Both the position numbers and the translations under genes were made by a program. Below are positions 743 to 15,916 of a stretch of DNA of 22,904 bases, piece after piece. Numbering within the stretch: position 1 is the stretch's first letter; each line of letters begins with the position of its first letter. The stretch is from the IMG/VR virus record IMGVR_UViG_3300001419_000059, positions 1-22,904 of that record. The stretch is one strand, 5' to 3'. Source of the stretch: a virus. The notes below the pieces were generated by a model. It was not told the DNA's origin, did not search any database, and saw nothing but the letters and a program-made list of their open reading frames with translations.

Positions 743-1111
743 ATGTCCCAGAAAAAAACACCAAAATCAGTGGGAAGGCCAAGGTTTCAGCCTACCGCCG
801 AGGAACGAAAAATCGTTGAGATGATGGCTGCACTTGGCACACCTCTTGATGATATGGCGCGTAATGTTCGCAAGGGTGGCATAGACGTTAAGACGCTACG
901 GAAACACTTTGATGAAGAAATTTCAACTGGCGCGACACGGGCTAATATCAAGGTCGGAGGCGCTATGTATAATAAAGCTCTCGGCGGCGATGTACAGGCT
1001 CAAAAGTATTTCTTAAGCTGTAGGGCCGGGTGGACGGAGAAAAACGCCATCGAGGTGTCAGGCGGCGTGACAATCGAATTGGTGGACTTCACCAGTGCAG
1101 ACAAGAATTAG
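743..1111 (+). CDS. terS: Terminase small subunit
   Basis: This 122-residue protein has the shape of phage small terminases. It opens with a basic N-terminus containing GRP and a helix-turn-helix region (EERKIVEMMAALG...DDMARNV...IDVKTLRKHFDEE, roughly residues 23-60). An oligomerisation helix follows, in which ANIKVGGAMYNKAL and AQKYFLSCRAGW match the common 'A..Gd..a..f.l..r.gW' pattern. It would bind the packaging site and present DNA to the large subunit. It is followed immediately by the large terminase gene, whose start overlaps its 3' end by 17 bases. ATG at 743 is chosen. An in-frame TTG at 737 overlaps the previous stop and could also serve. Confidence is high from domain pattern plus context. 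Confidence 0.82.
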   Translation: MSQKKTPKSVGRPRFQPTAEERKIVEMMAALGTPLDDMARNVRKGGIDVKTLRKHFDEEISTGATRANIKVGGAMYNKALGGDVQAQKYFLSCRAGWTEKNAIEVSGGVTIELVDFTSADKN

Positions 1112-2414
1112 AATCCCGCACAACTGGAAGCCCCGACCATACCAGCGCAATTTCTGGGCTGCAATGGCGCGAGGGTGCAAGCGTGCTGTGCTTGTGTGGC
1201 CTAGGCGTCATGGCAAAGATGACGTTTCGCTGCATTTTATGTGCTGGTCTGCATTGCAAAAAGCTGCGACGTACTGGTATATGCTCCCAGAAGCCGCTCA
1301 GGCGCGCAAAGCTATCTGGACGGCTATAAACCCGCACACAGGCCGGAAGCGCATTGATGAGGCGTTTCCACGGGGCATTGTTAAGCGCAAGAACGACCAG
1401 GAAATGTATATCGAACTGATTAATGGCTCCACGATCCAGATCGTCGGTTCGGATAACTATAACTCACTTGTTGGATCGCCTCCTTATGGCGTGGTGTTTT
1501 CTGAATGGGCTTTGGCAAACCCGTCAGCTTGGGGCTATCTGCGTCCTATCCTGCGCGAGAACGGTGGCTGGGCTATCTTCAACGGCACGCCACGAGGTCG
1601 CAACCACCATTCCACGATGTACGAGGCGGGGCTGGGTGACGACGAATGGTTCTGCGAGCTATTGACATGGAAAGACGCAGACGTTTTCACAGCCGAGGAA
1701 ATGAAAAAAGAGCGGCTTGAATACGAGCGGGAACACGGCAAGGACCAAGGAAACGCTTTGTTTCAGCAGGAATACAACTGCTCGTTTGATGCCGCTGTTA
1801 TGGGCGCGTATTACAGCGGCGAAATATCCAAGGCGGTAGAAGATGGGCGTGTGACCAAGATTGTGCATGATAAGGGATTGCGCGTTCATACCATGTGGGA
1901 CTTGGGGCGGTCTGATAGCACTGTCGTCTGGGTTTTCCAGGAAGTCGGCAATAGCTGGCACGTCCTGCGCTGCATAGCCAACAACGGCGTGAACATTGAT
2001 TGGTTTGCCAAAGAGTTGGACGGTCACGATTACACTTTTGGAAACCATTACATCCCGCACGACGGCGCACACGAACGCATTGGCATGGAAAAGAGCGTTG
2101 ATAAGCAACTTGGAGACTTGCTGGCTGGTGAGGTTGTCGTTGTTCCGTCTCCGCCAGGGTCAAGGCAAGTCGGCATCACCGAAACCCGTAAACAGATCAA
2201 TAAATGCTACTTTGACAAGGACGGGTGCCATGATGGGCTAGAGGCCTTGCGTATGTATCGCCGTGTGTGGGATGATAAGAACAAGCGGTTCCGGGATGAA
2301 CCGCTTCACGATTGGACTTCGGACTATGCAGACAGCTTCAGGTGCGGCGTAATGGGCTATGAACCAGCAAGCGACTGGGGAAAACTCGAATATCCAAAGA
2401 TGGATTATGTGTAA
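1095..2414 (+). CDS. terL: Terminase large subunit (ATPase and nuclease)
   Basis: This 439-residue DNA packaging motor begins at GTG 1095, with GGTGGA eight bases upstream. The start is supported by the conserved N-terminal PRPYQRNFW segment, which a later ATG would lose. The ATPase domain shows a Walker A-like WPRRHGKDD (35-43, K41), a Walker B ending in the catalytic acid (YGVVFSEW, E137) and the coupling motif IFNGTPRG (161-168). The C-terminal RNase H-like nuclease domain starts with MWDLGRSDS (D269, D274), and further acidic and His residues occur in the HYIPHDGAHE region. The length is typical. The gene overlaps terS and is followed by the portal gene after a 125-base gap, the standard phage order. 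Confidence 0.93.
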   Translation: MQTRIRIPHNWKPRPYQRNFWAAMARGCKRAVLVWPRRHGKDDVSLHFMCWSALQKAATYWYMLPEAAQARKAIWTAINPHTGRKRIDEAFPRGIVKRKNDQEMYIELINGSTIQIVGSDNYNSLVGSPPYGVVFSEWALANPSAWGYLRPILRENGGWAIFNGTPRGRNHHSTMYEAGLGDDEWFCELLTWKDADVFTAEEMKKERLEYEREHGKDQGNALFQQEYNCSFDAAVMGAYYSGEISKAVEDGRVTKIVHDKGLRVHTMWDLGRSDSTVVWVFQEVGNSWHVLRCIANNGVNIDWFAKELDGHDYTFGNHYIPHDGAHERIGMEKSVDKQLGDLLAGEVVVVPSPPGSRQVGITETRKQINKCYFDKDGCHDGLEALRMYRRVWDDKNKRFRDEPLHDWTSDYADSFRCGVMGYEPASDWGKLEYPKMDYV

Positions 2415-2428
2415 GGAAGGATACAGAT

Positions 2429-2479
2429 ATGGACGGAGGCATCATCGGCCTGATCCTAAAGTTGATTGGGTTGCTATAA
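2429..2479 (+). CDS. Possible 16-codon hydrophobic peptide
   Basis: ATG at 2429 opens a frame for MDGGIIGLILKLIGLL, ending at TAA 2477-2479. A strong ribosome binding site, AAGGAAGG, lies exactly eight bases upstream, which is better than at many real genes here. The peptide is almost entirely hydrophobic with one lysine and would insert in or lie on a membrane. The -35 element of the promoter at 2462 falls inside the frame. It could be a leader peptide, a small membrane-active protein or chance. No family is recognised. Confidence 0.35.
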   Translation: MDGGIIGLILKLIGLL

Positions 2480-2490
2480 CGTGTTAATAT
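2462..2490 (+). promoter_or_regulatory. Sigma70-type extended -10 promoter for the portal operon
   Basis: TTGATT at 2462-2467 is followed by a 17-base spacer and TAATAT at 2485-2490, with TG one base before the -10 box (extended -10). It lies 50 bases ahead of the portal ATG. A very similar extended -10 and leader occur at 14365. Use by the host sigma70 polymerase is inferred from the match. Confidence 0.55.
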
Positions 2491-2500
2491 TCGGCACTGA

Positions 2501-2514
2501 CCGCTGTGAAGCGG
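2501..2514 (+). promoter_or_regulatory. GNRA-loop hairpin in the portal leader
   Basis: CCGCT and AGCGG form a 5-bp stem closed by a GTGA (GNRA) tetraloop. The core CGCTGTGAAGCG begins 12 bases after the -10 box and would be at or near the 5' end of the transcript. The same 12-base core at the same distance occurs before the HNH gene. It is likely a transcript-stabilising leader; a pyrimidine-rich tract follows, so weak termination of upstream transcripts is also possible. Confidence 0.5.
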
Positions 2515-2539
2515 CCTATTTCCTTGCAAGGGATTGAAA

Positions 2540-4762
2540 ATGGACGACAGCGAAATCCTCAATATCGTGCGGCTCGAAAGCGCAGACGCCGAAAGCTATA
2601 TCAATTCGGAGATCAGCGAGGACCGCGAGGAGGCGCTTAAATCGTATCTTGGAGAGCCATACGGCGACGAGGTTGCCGGGTCTAGCCAAGTCGTTACCCG
2701 CGAAGTCATGGAAACGATTGAATGGGCCATGCCTTCCATTCTCAAGGTGTTTGCGGGCGGCGATGACGTTGTTGATTTCCAGCCCGTTGGCCCCGAAGAT
2801 GAGAAAAGCGCAGAGCAGGCCACCGATTACATCAATTACTGCTTCTACAACGACAATCCAGGCTTTTTAATCCTTAACACTTGGTTTAAGGACGCGCTCA
2901 TTGCCAAGATGGGCGTGGTCAAATCATTCTGGGAAGTCAAAGAAAAGGCATACGAAGAAGATTACAGCGGGCTTTCGCAGGCGCAGTACAATCTGTTGAC
3001 GGATAGCGACAGCGTTGAGGTTCTTGAGCATACAGCATACACGCAAGACGGCTTAGAAGTTGAAGACGGCGAGTTTGATGTGGCTGGCGTTGACGTTATG
3101 ACCGGGCAGCCTATCGAGTTCATGCACGACGTTAAGATCCGCGTGACGACTAAAGAGGGCCGTATGAAGACGGTCAACATCCCGCCCGAAGAATTTTACA
3201 TCTCACGTCAAGGCGTGGACCCTGATTCAAGCCCATATCTTGAGCACCGGGCAACAATGACGGCATCCGACCTTGTGGCGATGGGGTTTGACCGCAAGAC
3301 CGTTGAGAGCATCCCGTCAGCGTCAGAAGACGATCCCAGTGGCGAGCGTCAAATCCGCATGGGGACATCTGATGATGAGGAAACCCGCGCCGATCCTGCC
3401 ATGCGAGATATTACGGTCTATGAGAGCTATGTTTTTCTGGACAAGGACGACAGCGGGATTGCGCGCCGACACAAGGTTCTTTGGGCTGGCGAAGAAATCC
3501 TTGAAACGGAACTGTGCGAACACCAGCCTTTCTCGATTATTCAGACCATCCCAATCCCACACCGGGCGTATGGCCTGAGCCTTGCTGACATTGTGGTTGA
3601 CTTGCAGCGTATCAAGACGACAATCATGCGCCAAACCCTCAACAATCTGTATCTCAGCAACAACCCTGAGCGTGAGGTTCTTGAAGGCAAGGTAAACATC
3701 GAAGATCTGATGCAGTCGCGCCCAGGCGGGTTGAAGCGCGTCAAGCAAATGGGTTCTATTCGTGAGATTGCATATCCGTTTGTGGCGGCGCAATCGTTTA
3801 CCATGCTCGACGGTATCGACAGCATGATTTCGAAGCGGACTGGCATCTCAAACGCGGTGACGGGCATTGATGCAGACGTGCTCCAGAATGAGACAGCTAC
3901 GGCGTCAAACAACCAAGCTGCGGCTGCGAACCAGCGGTTAGAGACGATCTGCCGGATCTTTGCTGAAACTGGCGTTAAGCACCTGTTTAAGACATATCTG
4001 CGTATGATGGTCAAACACCAGGACAAACAGCGGGTTATCCGCCTGCGGAATGAATGGGTTGAAATGGACCCGCGCAGTTGGAATGCTGAAATGGACGTTT
4101 CAATTGACGTTGGCCTCGGTCACGGCAACAAAGACCAGCAAGTAGCGCACCTGATGAATTTGATGAACTGGCAGAAAGAGATGCTTGCATCTGGTGGCGT
4201 CGGCATGGTGCGCCCGAAGCATATCTATAACACGTTCTCCAAGATTGTGAAGGCGATCGGGTTTAAGTCAATCGAGCCGTTTATGGACGATCCAGGCGAC
4301 GAGCCATTGCCACAGCCAGAACAAGGGCAAGACCCGAATGCTGCACTGATCGCAGGCCAGATGCAGATAGAGCAGTTGAAAGCGCAACTGAAAATGGCTG
4401 AAACACGGGCTAAAATACAGGTTGATACTCAAAAGATACATGTCGACCACCAGCACGAAATGCACAAGCTGGGCCTTGAACGCGAAAAGCTGGACGTCGA
4501 GCGCGAGAAGATTGCTGCCCAGATGGATCAGACTGCGGCAAAGCTGGAAGTCGAAAAGGAAAAGGCCGGGGCGCAATTGGCTATGGAAGCCGACAGACTG
4601 CGGTATGACGCCGAGCAGAAAGAACGTGACCGTGGTATGAGTGCTGCTGAAAAGCGCGAAGACCGTATGCACCAAGCGGCTATTTCTGAACGCAAGTCAC
4701 AAAAGATGGTGAAAATGCAGCGCGGGCCTGATGGTTCAATGACGGGGATGGTTGAAGAATAA
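2540..4762 (+). CDS. Portal protein
   Basis: This 740-residue portal forms the dodecameric DNA channel at the capsid vertex. Its position right after terL, its length, the early segment with GSSQVVTREVMETIEWAMPS, and the stem/clip region with PHRAYGLSLADIVVDLQRIKT (about residues 338-358) fit the P22-like podovirus portal class. Residues about 604-720 form a long, highly charged coiled coil rich in Q, K, E and R, resembling the barrel extension seen in P22-type portals. ATG at 2540 is preferred, with AAGGGA seven bases upstream; TTG at 2534 is in frame but lacks a better site. It ends TAATG, coupled to the next gene. The promoter and hairpin just upstream probably drive it. Confidence 0.88.
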   Translation: MDDSEILNIVRLESADAESYINSEISEDREEALKSYLGEPYGDEVAGSSQVVTREVMETIEWAMPSILKVFAGGDDVVDFQPVGPEDEKSAEQATDYINYCFYNDNPGFLILNTWFKDALIAKMGVVKSFWEVKEKAYEEDYSGLSQAQYNLLTDSDSVEVLEHTAYTQDGLEVEDGEFDVAGVDVMTGQPIEFMHDVKIRVTTKEGRMKTVNIPPEEFYISRQGVDPDSSPYLEHRATMTASDLVAMGFDRKTVESIPSASEDDPSGERQIRMGTSDDEETRADPAMRDITVYESYVFLDKDDSGIARRHKVLWAGEEILETELCEHQPFSIIQTIPIPHRAYGLSLADIVVDLQRIKTTIMRQTLNNLYLSNNPEREVLEGKVNIEDLMQSRPGGLKRVKQMGSIREIAYPFVAAQSFTMLDGIDSMISKRTGISNAVTGIDADVLQNETATASNNQAAAANQRLETICRIFAETGVKHLFKTYLRMMVKHQDKQRVIRLRNEWVEMDPRSWNAEMDVSIDVGLGHGNKDQQVAHLMNLMNWQKEMLASGGVGMVRPKHIYNTFSKIVKAIGFKSIEPFMDDPGDEPLPQPEQGQDPNAALIAGQMQIEQLKAQLKMAETRAKIQVDTQKIHVDHQHEMHKLGLEREKLDVEREKIAAQMDQTAAKLEVEKEKAGAQLAMEADRLRYDAEQKERDRGMSAAEKREDRMHQAAISERKSQKMVKMQRGPDGSMTGMVEE

Positions 4763-8465: not shown

Positions 8466-8522
8466 GTGGCTTAAACTTTGAGCGTCGGATGACGGTCAGC
8501 ATCTCTACGGAGACTAAAAACC

Positions 8523-9503
8523 ATGATTGAGAACACGGGTGCGCCCACTCTCGAAATGCCGCAAACCCTTGAAGGGGCTGCGGATTTTCTCGTTGGCAAA
8601 ATGGCGGACAGCGAAAATGCTACACCCGCGCAGGCCGATAGCGAGGTAACGGAAGAAATCGAAGAAGATCCTTCCGATGACGTTGGTTCTGAACTGGAAG
8701 CCCAAGACGGCGAAGGTGATGACGAGACGGAATTAGAAGCCACTGACGAAGACAAAGAACACTCGCCCGTTGATTATATTGAAATCGACGGCGAACAAGT
8801 CTCTTTGGAAGACGTCGGCAAGTCGTACATGCGGCAGGCTTCTTATACCAAAAAGATGCAAGAACTTGCTGCACAACGCCAAGAGTTTGAGGCGATGCGC
8901 GGTCAGGAAATTGCGGCTTTAAACGCAGAGCGCGAACACATCAAAAAAGTCTTGGAAGCAGTCGGAACCCAGGAAAATAGCGAGCCTATTGACTGGACGC
9001 GACTGGCCCAAGAAGACCCCCTGGAGTACATCGCACAGAAGGCGAAGTATGACGAGGCGCAGGCACGCAAGTCTGCATTTGATGCGGAACGGCAGCGTTT
9101 GGCACAAGTGACGGCTCAACAGCAACAAGCCAAGATGCAGGAATATCTTGCTCAACAAAAGGCTAAAGTTATTGAGGCAATCCCTGAGTTGACTGGAAAG
9201 AACGGGAAAGAGTATCGGTCCGATATTCTCACCTATCTGGAAAATTCTGGGTATTCGAAGGCGGAGCTTCAGCAAATGGCTGATTCTCGTGCTGTTATAC
9301 TGGCTGATAAGGCTCGTAAATACGACGCGCTTATGGGCAAGGATGGACCCGCTTCAAAGAAAGTCACGACCACGCCAAGGGTTGTCAGGCCGAAAGCACA
9401 AACGACTTCGAAGGGTAAAGCCTCAGAGGCGAAACGTGCAGCTATTTCTCGCGCTCAAAAATCGGGCAGCATTGACGATGCCGTTAGTGCTCTTTTAGCT
9501 TAA
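8523..9503 (+). CDS. Capsid scaffolding protein
   Basis: This 326-residue protein sits directly before the major capsid gene. The N-terminal 85 residues are very acidic (many Glu and Asp). A short ordered motif follows, YIEIDGEQVSLEDV near 86-99. Residues about 100-225 form a charged coiled coil with many Gln, and the C-terminal 50 residues are basic and Ser/Lys-rich, suited to contacting the capsid protein. This acidic, helical, basic-tail plan is that of phage internal scaffolds, which guide shell assembly and then leave. GGAG lies ten bases before the ATG. No protease domain is seen here or nearby, so maturation would rely on scaffold exit or another enzyme outside the window. Confidence 0.85.
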   Translation: MIENTGAPTLEMPQTLEGAADFLVGKMADSENATPAQADSEVTEEIEEDPSDDVGSELEAQDGEGDDETELEATDEDKEHSPVDYIEIDGEQVSLEDVGKSYMRQASYTKKMQELAAQRQEFEAMRGQEIAALNAEREHIKKVLEAVGTQENSEPIDWTRLAQEDPLEYIAQKAKYDEAQARKSAFDAERQRLAQVTAQQQQAKMQEYLAQQKAKVIEAIPELTGKNGKEYRSDILTYLENSGYSKAELQQMADSRAVILADKARKYDALMGKDGPASKKVTTTPRVVRPKAQTTSKGKASEAKRAAISRAQKSGSIDDAVSALLA

Positions 9504-14051: not shown

Positions 14052-14362
14052 GTTTTCCAACCGTAAATCAAGACGAAAAAGACCATCGCAAGGTTAATGC
14101 TGTTGTGCGAAACGTGGTCGACGGCAAGACGAACAACACGGCAAGCCTGACTTTAACTGCAAGCGTAGGCACAACGGTTGTGACTGACTTTCGGGCAGGA
14201 GCGGAAAGCTATGTTTGCTTTATGCCGTTGACGGCAAACGCGGCGGCTGAATTAGCGGCGGGAACGATGTATGTATCCAGCCAAGGCACGAATACATTTA
14301 CGATTACTCACCAAAATGCTATAACTACAGACAGAACATTCAGATATATCGTGGTCGCATAA
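14048..14362 (+). CDS. Small beta-rich tail or fibre-associated protein
   Basis: This 104-residue protein starts in an ATGA overlap with the nozzle. A short helix region (DEKDHRKVNAVVRNVVDG) comes first. A beta domain follows, with SLTLTASVGTTVVTDFR and TANAAAELAAGTMYVSSQG, ending FTITHQNAITTDRTFRYIVVA. This pattern, including 'tDRtF.Y', is frequent in small phage virion proteins next to tail genes and probably forms a trimeric beta structure. It could be a fibre tip, needle or nozzle plug; no function is proved. Confidence 0.65.
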   Translation: MSFPTVNQDEKDHRKVNAVVRNVVDGKTNNTASLTLTASVGTTVVTDFRAGAESYVCFMPLTANAAAELAAGTMYVSSQGTNTFTITHQNAITTDRTFRYIVVA

Positions 14363-14364
14363 TG

Positions 14365-14396
14365 TGTTATTATGCAACCCGGAACGCTGTGAAGCG
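14365..14396 (+). promoter_or_regulatory. Extended -10 promoter with GNRA-hairpin leader before the HNH gene
   Basis: TG-T-TATTAT (14365-14373) is an extended -10 box matching the consensus at five of six -10 positions; the -35 region is poor. Twelve bases later lies CGCTGTGAAGCG (14385-14396), a 4-bp stem with a GTGA loop, identical in core and spacing to that ahead of the portal gene. A pyrimidine tract follows. Confidence 0.52.
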
Positions 14397-14422
14397 ACCC
14401 TTTTCTTTTCGGAGACGTGACA

Positions 14423-15013
14423 ATGGGCAAGATTTATGGTGTAGCAGAGTTCGACGGGGACTACAATCCTCGCCCGTACGTTGACGGCGTTCGCCAAACA
14501 TGCTCGATTTTCCGCACATGGGTGAATATGTTGCGGCGTGTGTTTAGGCGGTCTGACGCCTCATACATTGACGCTTCTATTTGTGAGGAATGGCTGAAAT
14601 TCAGCAATTTTTCCGCATGGATGAAGTCGCAAGATTGGCAAGGTAAACACCTAGATAAAGATGTTCTGCTGCCCGGCAACTCACGTTATGCGCCTGAATT
14701 GTGCGCCTTCGTTGACCGCCAAGTGAACAATGCGCTCACGCACACAAAATCTACATCATCTATTGCTCCGGGCATTGATTATGCTCGTGACGGCAAGTCT
14801 TATCAGGTTCGAGTTTCTGATTGCGGGAAACGTAAGCAAGTGGGAACTTTTAAGAAGTTGGATGATGCGAAGTCGGCTTACGCACATGCTAAGGCTGAGA
14901 TTTTAATCAAAATGGCGAACGCTGAAAAAGACGCTCGTGTCGCCAATGGGCTTAGATTGCACGGTTTGTGTGTTCGGCACGGACTTTCAGCGTCTGAATT
15001 GCAGGAGATTTAA
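14423..15013 (+). CDS. HNH homing-type endonuclease with AP2-like DNA-binding domain
   Basis: This 196-residue protein follows the known plan of phage free-standing HNH/AP2 endonucleases. It has WVNMLRRV at 33-40, CEEWLKFSNFSAWM at 54-67, GKHLDKD at 74-80 and YAPELCAFV at 89-97. A C-terminal AP2-like part (about 117-155) has paired strands and a final helix, ending KLDDAKSAYAHAKAE. Such enzymes cut intron- or gene-less alleles and spread by repair. It interrupts the structural operon between a tail gene and the ejection genes. ATG at 14423 is chosen, with GGAG eight bases upstream; GTG at 14417 is in frame. Activity has not been shown. Confidence 0.82.
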   Translation: MGKIYGVAEFDGDYNPRPYVDGVRQTCSIFRTWVNMLRRVFRRSDASYIDASICEEWLKFSNFSAWMKSQDWQGKHLDKDVLLPGNSRYAPELCAFVDRQVNNALTHTKSTSSIAPGIDYARDGKSYQVRVSDCGKRKQVGTFKKLDDAKSAYAHAKAEILIKMANAEKDARVANGLRLHGLCVRHGLSASELQEI

Positions 15014-15016
15014 ACC

Positions 15017-15916
15017 ATGCCATTTCTTGACGGAGGCTTCTTAGGCGGGATGTTGGGCGGCGGCTCAAGCCCGGCTCAAATCCAAACGCAAACGACGTCG
15101 AGTTCCCCTTGGGCACCTCAACAGCCGTATTTAGAGGAAATTTTCAAGGGCGCACAAGATGCTTATGGATCTGCTGCCCCTAGCTTTTACCCGAACAGCA
15201 CTGTCGTCGATTTCAGCCCGCAAACGCAACAGGCGTTAGGTGGCATTGAACAACGCGCAACCGCTGGGTCGCCTTTGCAACAACAGGCCATGCAGCAAGC
15301 CCAGAACACGGTTCAGGGGGACTATCTGCAAGCGTCACCGTTCCTATCAGGAGCTTACGAGCAGGCCATGCAGCCTGTTATGCAGCAATGGCAAAACCAG
15401 ATCGCGCCGGGTATCGACGCCCAGTTCATCAATGCAGGTGCAGGCGGTATGCGCTCAGGTGCCTATGCGAATGCCCGCAACACGGCTGAAGACACTCTAG
15501 CCCGTGCAATGACTGGCACCGCTGCTGATATGGCTTACAAGGACTACTCCAAAGAGCGCGGATACCAGAACCAGATGATCGGCGCGGCTCCTGGTCTTGC
15601 ACAGTCTGATTACGCTGACTACCAGCAACTGATGAATGTTGGCGGCGCTCGTGAAGGTTTGGCACAAGCGCAATTGCAAGAGAACATTGACCGCTATCAA
15701 TTTGAACAGAACAGGCCGTGGGAACAGTTGGCCCGTTATAGCGGCATGGTTGGCGGTGGGTATGGTCAACAGACGACGCAACAAAAGCCGCTTTACAGCA
15801 ACGCGGGCATGAACTTCCTCGGCGGTGCATTGGGTGGCGCTCAACTCGGTTCGATGACTGGTATGGGTGCTGGATACGGCGCTCTTGGCGGTGGCATCTT
15901 AGGTTTGATGGGATAG
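15017..15916 (+). CDS. Probable internal virion / ejection protein
   Basis: This 299-residue protein has an N-terminal Gly-rich segment (FLGGMLGGGSS), a long Gln/Ala-rich helical middle (many QQ pairs) and a C-terminal Gly-rich stretch (NFLGGALGGAQLGS, then GAGYGALGGGILGLMG) able to insert in membranes. This composition is that of podovirus ejection proteins which exit with the DNA and help build a channel through the cell envelope. It is the first of three such genes in a row. AGGAG lies nine bases before the ATG. There is no catalytic motif. Confidence 0.68.
   Translation: MPFLDGGFLGGMLGGGSSPAQIQTQTTSSSPWAPQQPYLEEIFKGAQDAYGSAAPSFYPNSTVVDFSPQTQQALGGIEQRATAGSPLQQQAMQQAQNTVQGDYLQASPFLSGAYEQAMQPVMQQWQNQIAPGIDAQFINAGAGGMRSGAYANARNTAEDTLARAMTGTAADMAYKDYSKERGYQNQMIGAAPGLAQSDYADYQQLMNVGGAREGLAQAQLQENIDRYQFEQNRPWEQLARYSGMVGGGYGQQTTQQKPLYSNAGMNFLGGALGGAQLGSMTGMGAGYGALGGGILGLMG

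Follow-up and report, generated by a model that had tools for sequence, protein, structure and literature searches.

The two hairpin elements that precede the portal gene and an HNH endonuclease gene in this phage fragment probably both belong to a type of structured mRNA leader that stands before virion genes in many phages, and that would act at the ribosome-binding site. The whole stretch analysed, hereafter the window, is a 22.9-kb (22,904-nucleotide) IMG/VR fragment of a tailed phage. The genes tested match terminase, portal, virion structural proteins, scaffold and major capsid, making it a head, packaging and structural region. None of the named phages is close to the window at the DNA level, and by its capsid protein it is closest to other contigs in IMG/VR (63-73% identity).

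Table 1. Coordinates of the leader elements and associated genes in the window
Feature	Position	Strand	Basis
Sigma70-like promoter, portal leader: TTGATT, 17 bp, TAATAT, TG extension	2462..2490	+	Consensus match, spacing
GNGA hairpin, portal leader: CCGCT-GTGA-AGCGG	2498..2515	+	Covariance model, 45.4 bits
C/U-rich tract CCTATTTCC, then Shine-Dalgarno AAGGGA	2516..2539	+	
Portal gene, behind first leader	2540..4762	+	phrog_1216
Possible degenerate third leader before scaffold gene: GA-G-CGTC-GGAT-GACG-G-TC, then CTCTACGGAG	8480..8522	+	
Extended -10-like TG-T-TATTAT with poor -35, HNH leader	14368..14373	+	
GNGA hairpin, second leader: CGCT-GTGA-AGCG, outer GG/CC	14380..14400	+	Covariance model, 42.7 bits
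C/U-rich tract CCCTTTTCTTTT, Shine-Dalgarno TCGGAG	14397..14422	+	
HNH endonuclease gene, behind second leader	14423..15013	+	phrog_953
DNA ejection protein gene; homologs in L088 and L150 directly behind leader	15017..15916	+	phrog_4287

Both copies lie where an earlier note on this DNA had placed them. The first consists of TGTTAATAT (2482-2490), 11 bases and CGCTGTGAAGCG (2502-2513), and the second of TGTTATTAT (14365-14373), 11 bases and again CGCTGTGAAGCG (14385-14396). The pattern common to the two is TGTTAWTAT, 11 bases, CGCTGTGAAGCG, so that the gap previously given as exactly 12 bases was off by one at both sites. A longer conserved block, ATAAYGTGTTAWTAT-N11-CGCTGTGAAGCG, is found inside a 68-nt direct repeat of 71% identity (2476-2543 and 14359-14426), of which the two hairpins are the core. 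Each repeat copy has the stop codon of the upstream gene at its start and an ATG at its end, with 26 nt from the end of the hairpin to the ATG in both cases (ATG at 2540 for portal, at 14423 for HNH). The exact 12-mer CGCTGTGAAGCG occurs at only these two places within the window; taken alone it is unremarkable, because 122 distinct 12-mers recur there. Each hairpin is more stably folded than shuffled sequences (z = -2.75 in both cases). A second 5-bp hairpin in the portal leader, UUCCU-UGCA-AGGGA within 2516..2539, could mask the Shine-Dalgarno sequence. The possible third copy (CGTC-GGAT-GACG, 8483-8494) lies 28 nt upstream of the scaffold ATG at 8523, and was not detected by the covariance model described below.

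Conservation of the hairpin in relatives, on which the earlier note had staked its reading, was indeed found, together with compensatory changes. In L088, a contig whose major capsid protein (MCP) is 70% identical, hairpins CCGTTGTGAAACGG occupy both corresponding positions, ahead of the portal and ejection genes, and in L120 a hairpin CCGCTGAGAAGCGG precedes the portal gene. Relative to the window, the stem bases in these contigs differ on both sides while the loop remains of the GNRA type. Because the stem differs in relatives, an exact DNA search of viral contigs for the whole promoter-hairpin unit gave no match. Scanning for the hairpin together with its pyrimidine tract revealed the same layout in unrelated IMG/VR phages, in the leaders of P22-type (L142) and HK97-type (L141, L144) capsid genes and of major tail genes (L131, L135). 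A second scan, with GNRA loop, tract and Shine-Dalgarno fixed and with stem and start codon free, found L295 again and added new leaders (L307, L309, L310, L313, L321 and the capsid leader of L133). A complementary 4-bp stem was present in 11 of its 27 stretches, against a chance expectation of about 2% (P about 2e-12). When the loop was fixed as GTGA and the stem left free, the only convincing stems among the matches listed were CGYT/ARCG. The leader is thus present in many unrelated phages and is not the phage-specific unit it had been taken for. Across 2,104 gene starts scanned, GNRA hairpins peak 26-29 nt before the start codon, and other loops are flat; the bulk of this peak is made up of loci that had been fetched by pattern, which the L088 and L142 scaffold genes, L133 and L120 had not.

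A core set of 20 leaders aligns without gaps over 30 columns. RNAalifold folds it into two base pairs, a 1x1 internal loop, five base pairs and a tetraloop, with two extra covarying outer pairs. All five core pairs show two-sided changes and 98% of cells are paired; none of 500 shuffles matched either the core pairing or the covariation score, and slid versions of the alignment collapse. Compensatory changes occur at all seven pairs in this set. The loop is invariably G-N-G-A (20 of 20), and the tract that follows the hairpin is C/U-rich, CCCUUUCCC in the alignment, although for bases set by the search patterns such conservation is in part circular, as most of the 20 sites were retrieved by partly fixed patterns. 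The free-stem test, the gene-start geometry scan and the later covariance-model matches are less circular. A GGA begins 16.05 +/- 1.4 nt past the hairpin, and the distance from hairpin to ATG is 25-29 nt in every one of the 20. The covariance model built from these leaders gives the window copies 45 and 43 bits, and Rfam contains no family at or above gathering score, nor at E-values up to 5. A second class of leader carries GNGAY pentaloops on a GCGUC/GACGC stem (L304, L305, L314, L317, L318 and L322).

Genes for virion head, tail or ejection functions, assigned by PHROGs or direct homology, lie behind 17 of the 20 aligned leaders. The three exceptions are the window HNH gene, a 253-aa gene in L307 (phrog_8234) and a 67-aa gene in L291. 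Major capsid genes behind leaders belong to five PHROGs (10, 283, 334, 1005 and 1328), and in unrelated Caudoviricetes the leader is also found before scaffold, portal, major tail or tube, sheath and ejection genes. Leaders found later likewise precede virion genes, and matches of the model beyond its training set comprise the scaffold genes of L150, L120, L089 and L091, the sheath and tube genes of L317, and sites in L305 and L318. A tandem pair of leaders stands before a single HK97-type capsid gene at L309:4208-4299, where the tandem copy is a non-training match; this contig seemingly comes from an isolate genome, judging by its IMG number. A strong leader (51 bits) precedes the 67-aa gene at L339:12545-12594, in a contig from a Proteobacteria MAG with a His_biosynth-family gene. 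Given that the L291/L339 contig bears a histidine-biosynthesis gene and a transposase domain, it is probably chromosomal. The leader is absent from most MCP relatives examined, and was not found in cultured MCP or portal relatives (phiM5, RHph_N3_2, RHEph18, pCB2047-A, Bjorn, Venkman and others); it is therefore not needed for this gene arrangement.

Several matches were set aside. A hairpin before the coat gene of the ssRNA phage L143 was ascribed to chance, as four related ssRNA phages lack it. Many tract-scan matches with CGTTGTGAACCG fell inside conserved coding sequence and had no complementary stem. The chromosomal matches G078, G092 and G107 are ordinary terminators, and the model matches in L097 and L175, at 18-19 bits, are terminator-like.

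Within the lineage of the window, the leader is accompanied by a promoter-like sequence. Five of six portal or ejection-type leaders carry sigma70-type hexamers, set 17 bp apart, that match at 8-9 of 12 positions. The spacing of the window portal leader recurs in L088 (TTGCCA/TAAACT and TTGAAT/TACAAT), L120 (TTTACT/TAATAT) and L150 (TTTACA/TATTGT), while the window HNH copy is weak as a promoter, with 7 of 12 matches to the sigma70 hexamers and an extended -10. The lineage hexamers lie 9-12 nt 5' of the hairpin. Their summed score is 50 versus 34.5 in shuffles, and none of 20,000 simulations reached 50, giving a P value that is optimistic because the distances examined were picked after the sites had been seen. 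The remaining 13 leaders, from other phages, showed no promoter signal (P = 0.34). A promoter-like sequence at fixed distance, as the earlier note proposed, is thus supported within the window lineage and not as part of the general unit; with leaders in other phages lacking it, the hairpin must be the wider unit of the two. With a transcription start 7-8 bases past the -10, the first base of the hairpin would fall at about +3 to +6. The predicted start in the portal leader is near 2497, and in the window lineage, the only one for which promoter placement predicts it, the hairpin would be 5'-terminal on transcripts starting some 3-6 nt before it.

The second leader has a different gene behind it in relatives. 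L088 and L150 have no counterpart of the HNH gene at this place, and there the ejection gene comes immediately after the leader. Insertion of the HNH gene just behind the ejection-gene leader, which it would now be using, is the most economical explanation. The window HNH gene sits between two virion genes, and it is missing from this position in all close relatives that cover the region.

Since the distance to the Shine-Dalgarno sequence and start codon is kept with or without an adjacent promoter, the hairpin would seem to matter for the start of translation or the stability of the mRNA and not for transcription. Most likely it serves as a leader that favors translation or message stability where virion proteins are needed in abundance. 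As an RNA element at the ribosome-binding site, the hairpin could stop upstream sequence from folding onto the Shine-Dalgarno sequence and so insulate the site, with the pyrimidine tract staying open for ribosome (S1) loading. It may also shield the message from decay, which would give a high yield of virion protein, and in the window lineage the sigma70-like promoter seems to be placed so that the hairpin becomes 5'-terminal. The hairpin thus probably helps virion genes to be read at a high level. More tentatively, we propose an undescribed family of cis-acting RNA leaders in podo-, sipho- and myovirus-type phages, perhaps of proteobacterial hosts, which might serve as a portable translation and stability module through a GNGA hairpin docked beside the ribosome at a set position, or bound by a host factor of which many phages make use. 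A literature search of partial coverage found no description of such a motif. Late phage genes need strong and proportionate expression, and a recurrent covarying module points to a common solution. The leader could be used as a sequence tag with which to locate virion genes on phage contigs from dark metagenomic data, and is a candidate expression element for hosts where the common coliphage leaders bring no benefit.

Comparison with known systems shows likenesses of layout. The natural T7 gene 10 leader also begins with a hairpin. Like the present leader, it precedes a phage capsid gene and has an upstream element next to the Shine-Dalgarno sequence; T7 g10RBS reportedly gives expression 40-fold or more above that of a consensus RBS, and S1 binding has been proposed for the gene 10 enhancer (PMC8748333). 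The enhancer of T7 is a movable, A/U-rich 9-nt element, whereas here a covarying GNGA hairpin at fixed distance is followed by a C/U-rich tract; the aligned leaders have CCCUUUCCC in place of an A/U-rich 9-nt enhancer, and the comparison is one of layout and not of sequence. The enhancer of T7 proved dispensable in Agrobacterium. The stabilizer hairpins of the ompA/papA type (cited in PMC3997798, refs 92-95) lie at or near the 5' end and upstream of the RBS, as the leader hairpin would in the window lineage, where the transcript is predicted to start 3-6 nt before it. They differ from the present leaders, most of which lack an adjacent promoter and need not be 5'-terminal, and whose sequence and loop are conserved across phages. 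The lambda boxB hairpin of the nut site shares the stem of about 5 bp, the GNRA-like loop and the setting in phage RNA. Unlike boxB, the leader hairpin is tied in position to a downstream start codon, its main class has a GNGA tetraloop and its second class has pentaloops.

Four other explanations can be set against a leader acting at the ribosome-binding site. In one, the hairpin is an operator that a host or phage RNA-binding protein recognises, activating or repressing virion translation. Such an operator would suit the specific stem and invariant loop beside the Shine-Dalgarno sequence, and copies in the same genome sometimes share a stem variant (CGCT/AGCG twice in the window, CGTT/AACG in L088 and L150). 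The tract, moreover, can pair with the Shine-Dalgarno sequence in the window portal, L088 and L150 leaders, making a switch conceivable. We nevertheless regard an operator as rather unlikely: the leader precedes unrelated capsid and tail genes, which makes it unlikely that a capsid protein binds the message from which it is made, no protein emerged as a candidate binder, and the GGA of CsrA/RsmA-type sites is present in only 3 of 20 hairpin loops. It is distinctly unlikely that the element is an intrinsic terminator, perhaps a partial one, which serves the gene before it and merely happens to stand between late genes, the promoter then starting transcription anew. Proteobacterial intrinsic terminators do share the GC-rich stem followed by pyrimidines, and some chromosomal ones score with the model: the matches in L336-L338, from bacterial chromosomes (27-31 bits), have the appearance of ordinary terminators, in which a GNGA-type loop goes with a long U run. 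Among the 20 leaders, though, just six have at least five T in the eight bases after the stem, and the other 14 miss even this lax rule, their tract being CCCUUUCCC with no U run. A terminator would have no need of a fixed distance to the downstream Shine-Dalgarno sequence and ATG, and those between scaffold and MCP would cut the virion operon. Considering the similar-loop terminators of bacterial chromosomes, the leader could, speculatively, have descended from one.

The earlier note saw a promoter-leader unit in which the hairpin matters only as a 5'-terminal structure, protective or of antitermination type. The sigma70-like promoters of the lineage, with their 17-bp spacer 9-12 nt before the hairpin in five of six leaders, and the conserved hairpin itself lend partial support to the idea of a start site with a protective leader, for the window lineage. 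It does not extend to the wider family, in which 13 leaders without a promoter have kept the hairpin where it need not be 5'-terminal. Antitermination is disfavored, as no boxA site (YGCTCTTTA) with one mismatch or fewer lies near the hairpin in the 20 leaders, and the element keeps a set distance from the Shine-Dalgarno sequence and ATG that antitermination would not require. As a full account, the promoter-leader unit is therefore very improbable. Scarcely credible is chance similarity or a recent functionless duplication in one phage: the window copies are paralogous, as the 68-nt repeat attests, but compensatory changes and recurrence before the virion genes of unrelated phages speak against it.

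A few further observations concern the surroundings of the leaders. The terminase of the window (1095-2414) is nearest to that of L093 (47%), and the portal (2540-4762) to those of L088, L126, L092 and L120 (about 50-52%), marking a mosaic boundary at which the first leader sits. Between these two genes, a short ORF with a good Shine-Dalgarno sequence (2429-2479) encodes a hydrophobic 16-residue peptide, MDGGIIGLILKLIGLL, and the promoter-like -35 falls within it. A 202-aa ORF at 132-740 resembles, by eye, a GIY-YIG-type endonuclease; PHROG and Pfam searches gave no match to it. An extra UUCG-loop hairpin lies between the pyrimidine tract and the Shine-Dalgarno sequence at L120:8930-8990, in L089 and L091, and at L322:5606-5630. 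In L131, L134, L148, L141, L144, L310 and L318, a further hairpin, which contains a conserved CCTTGGGCAAGG-like sequence, is located about 10-25 nt 5' of the GNGA hairpin, and the GGG of its loop might base-pair with CCC in the tract.
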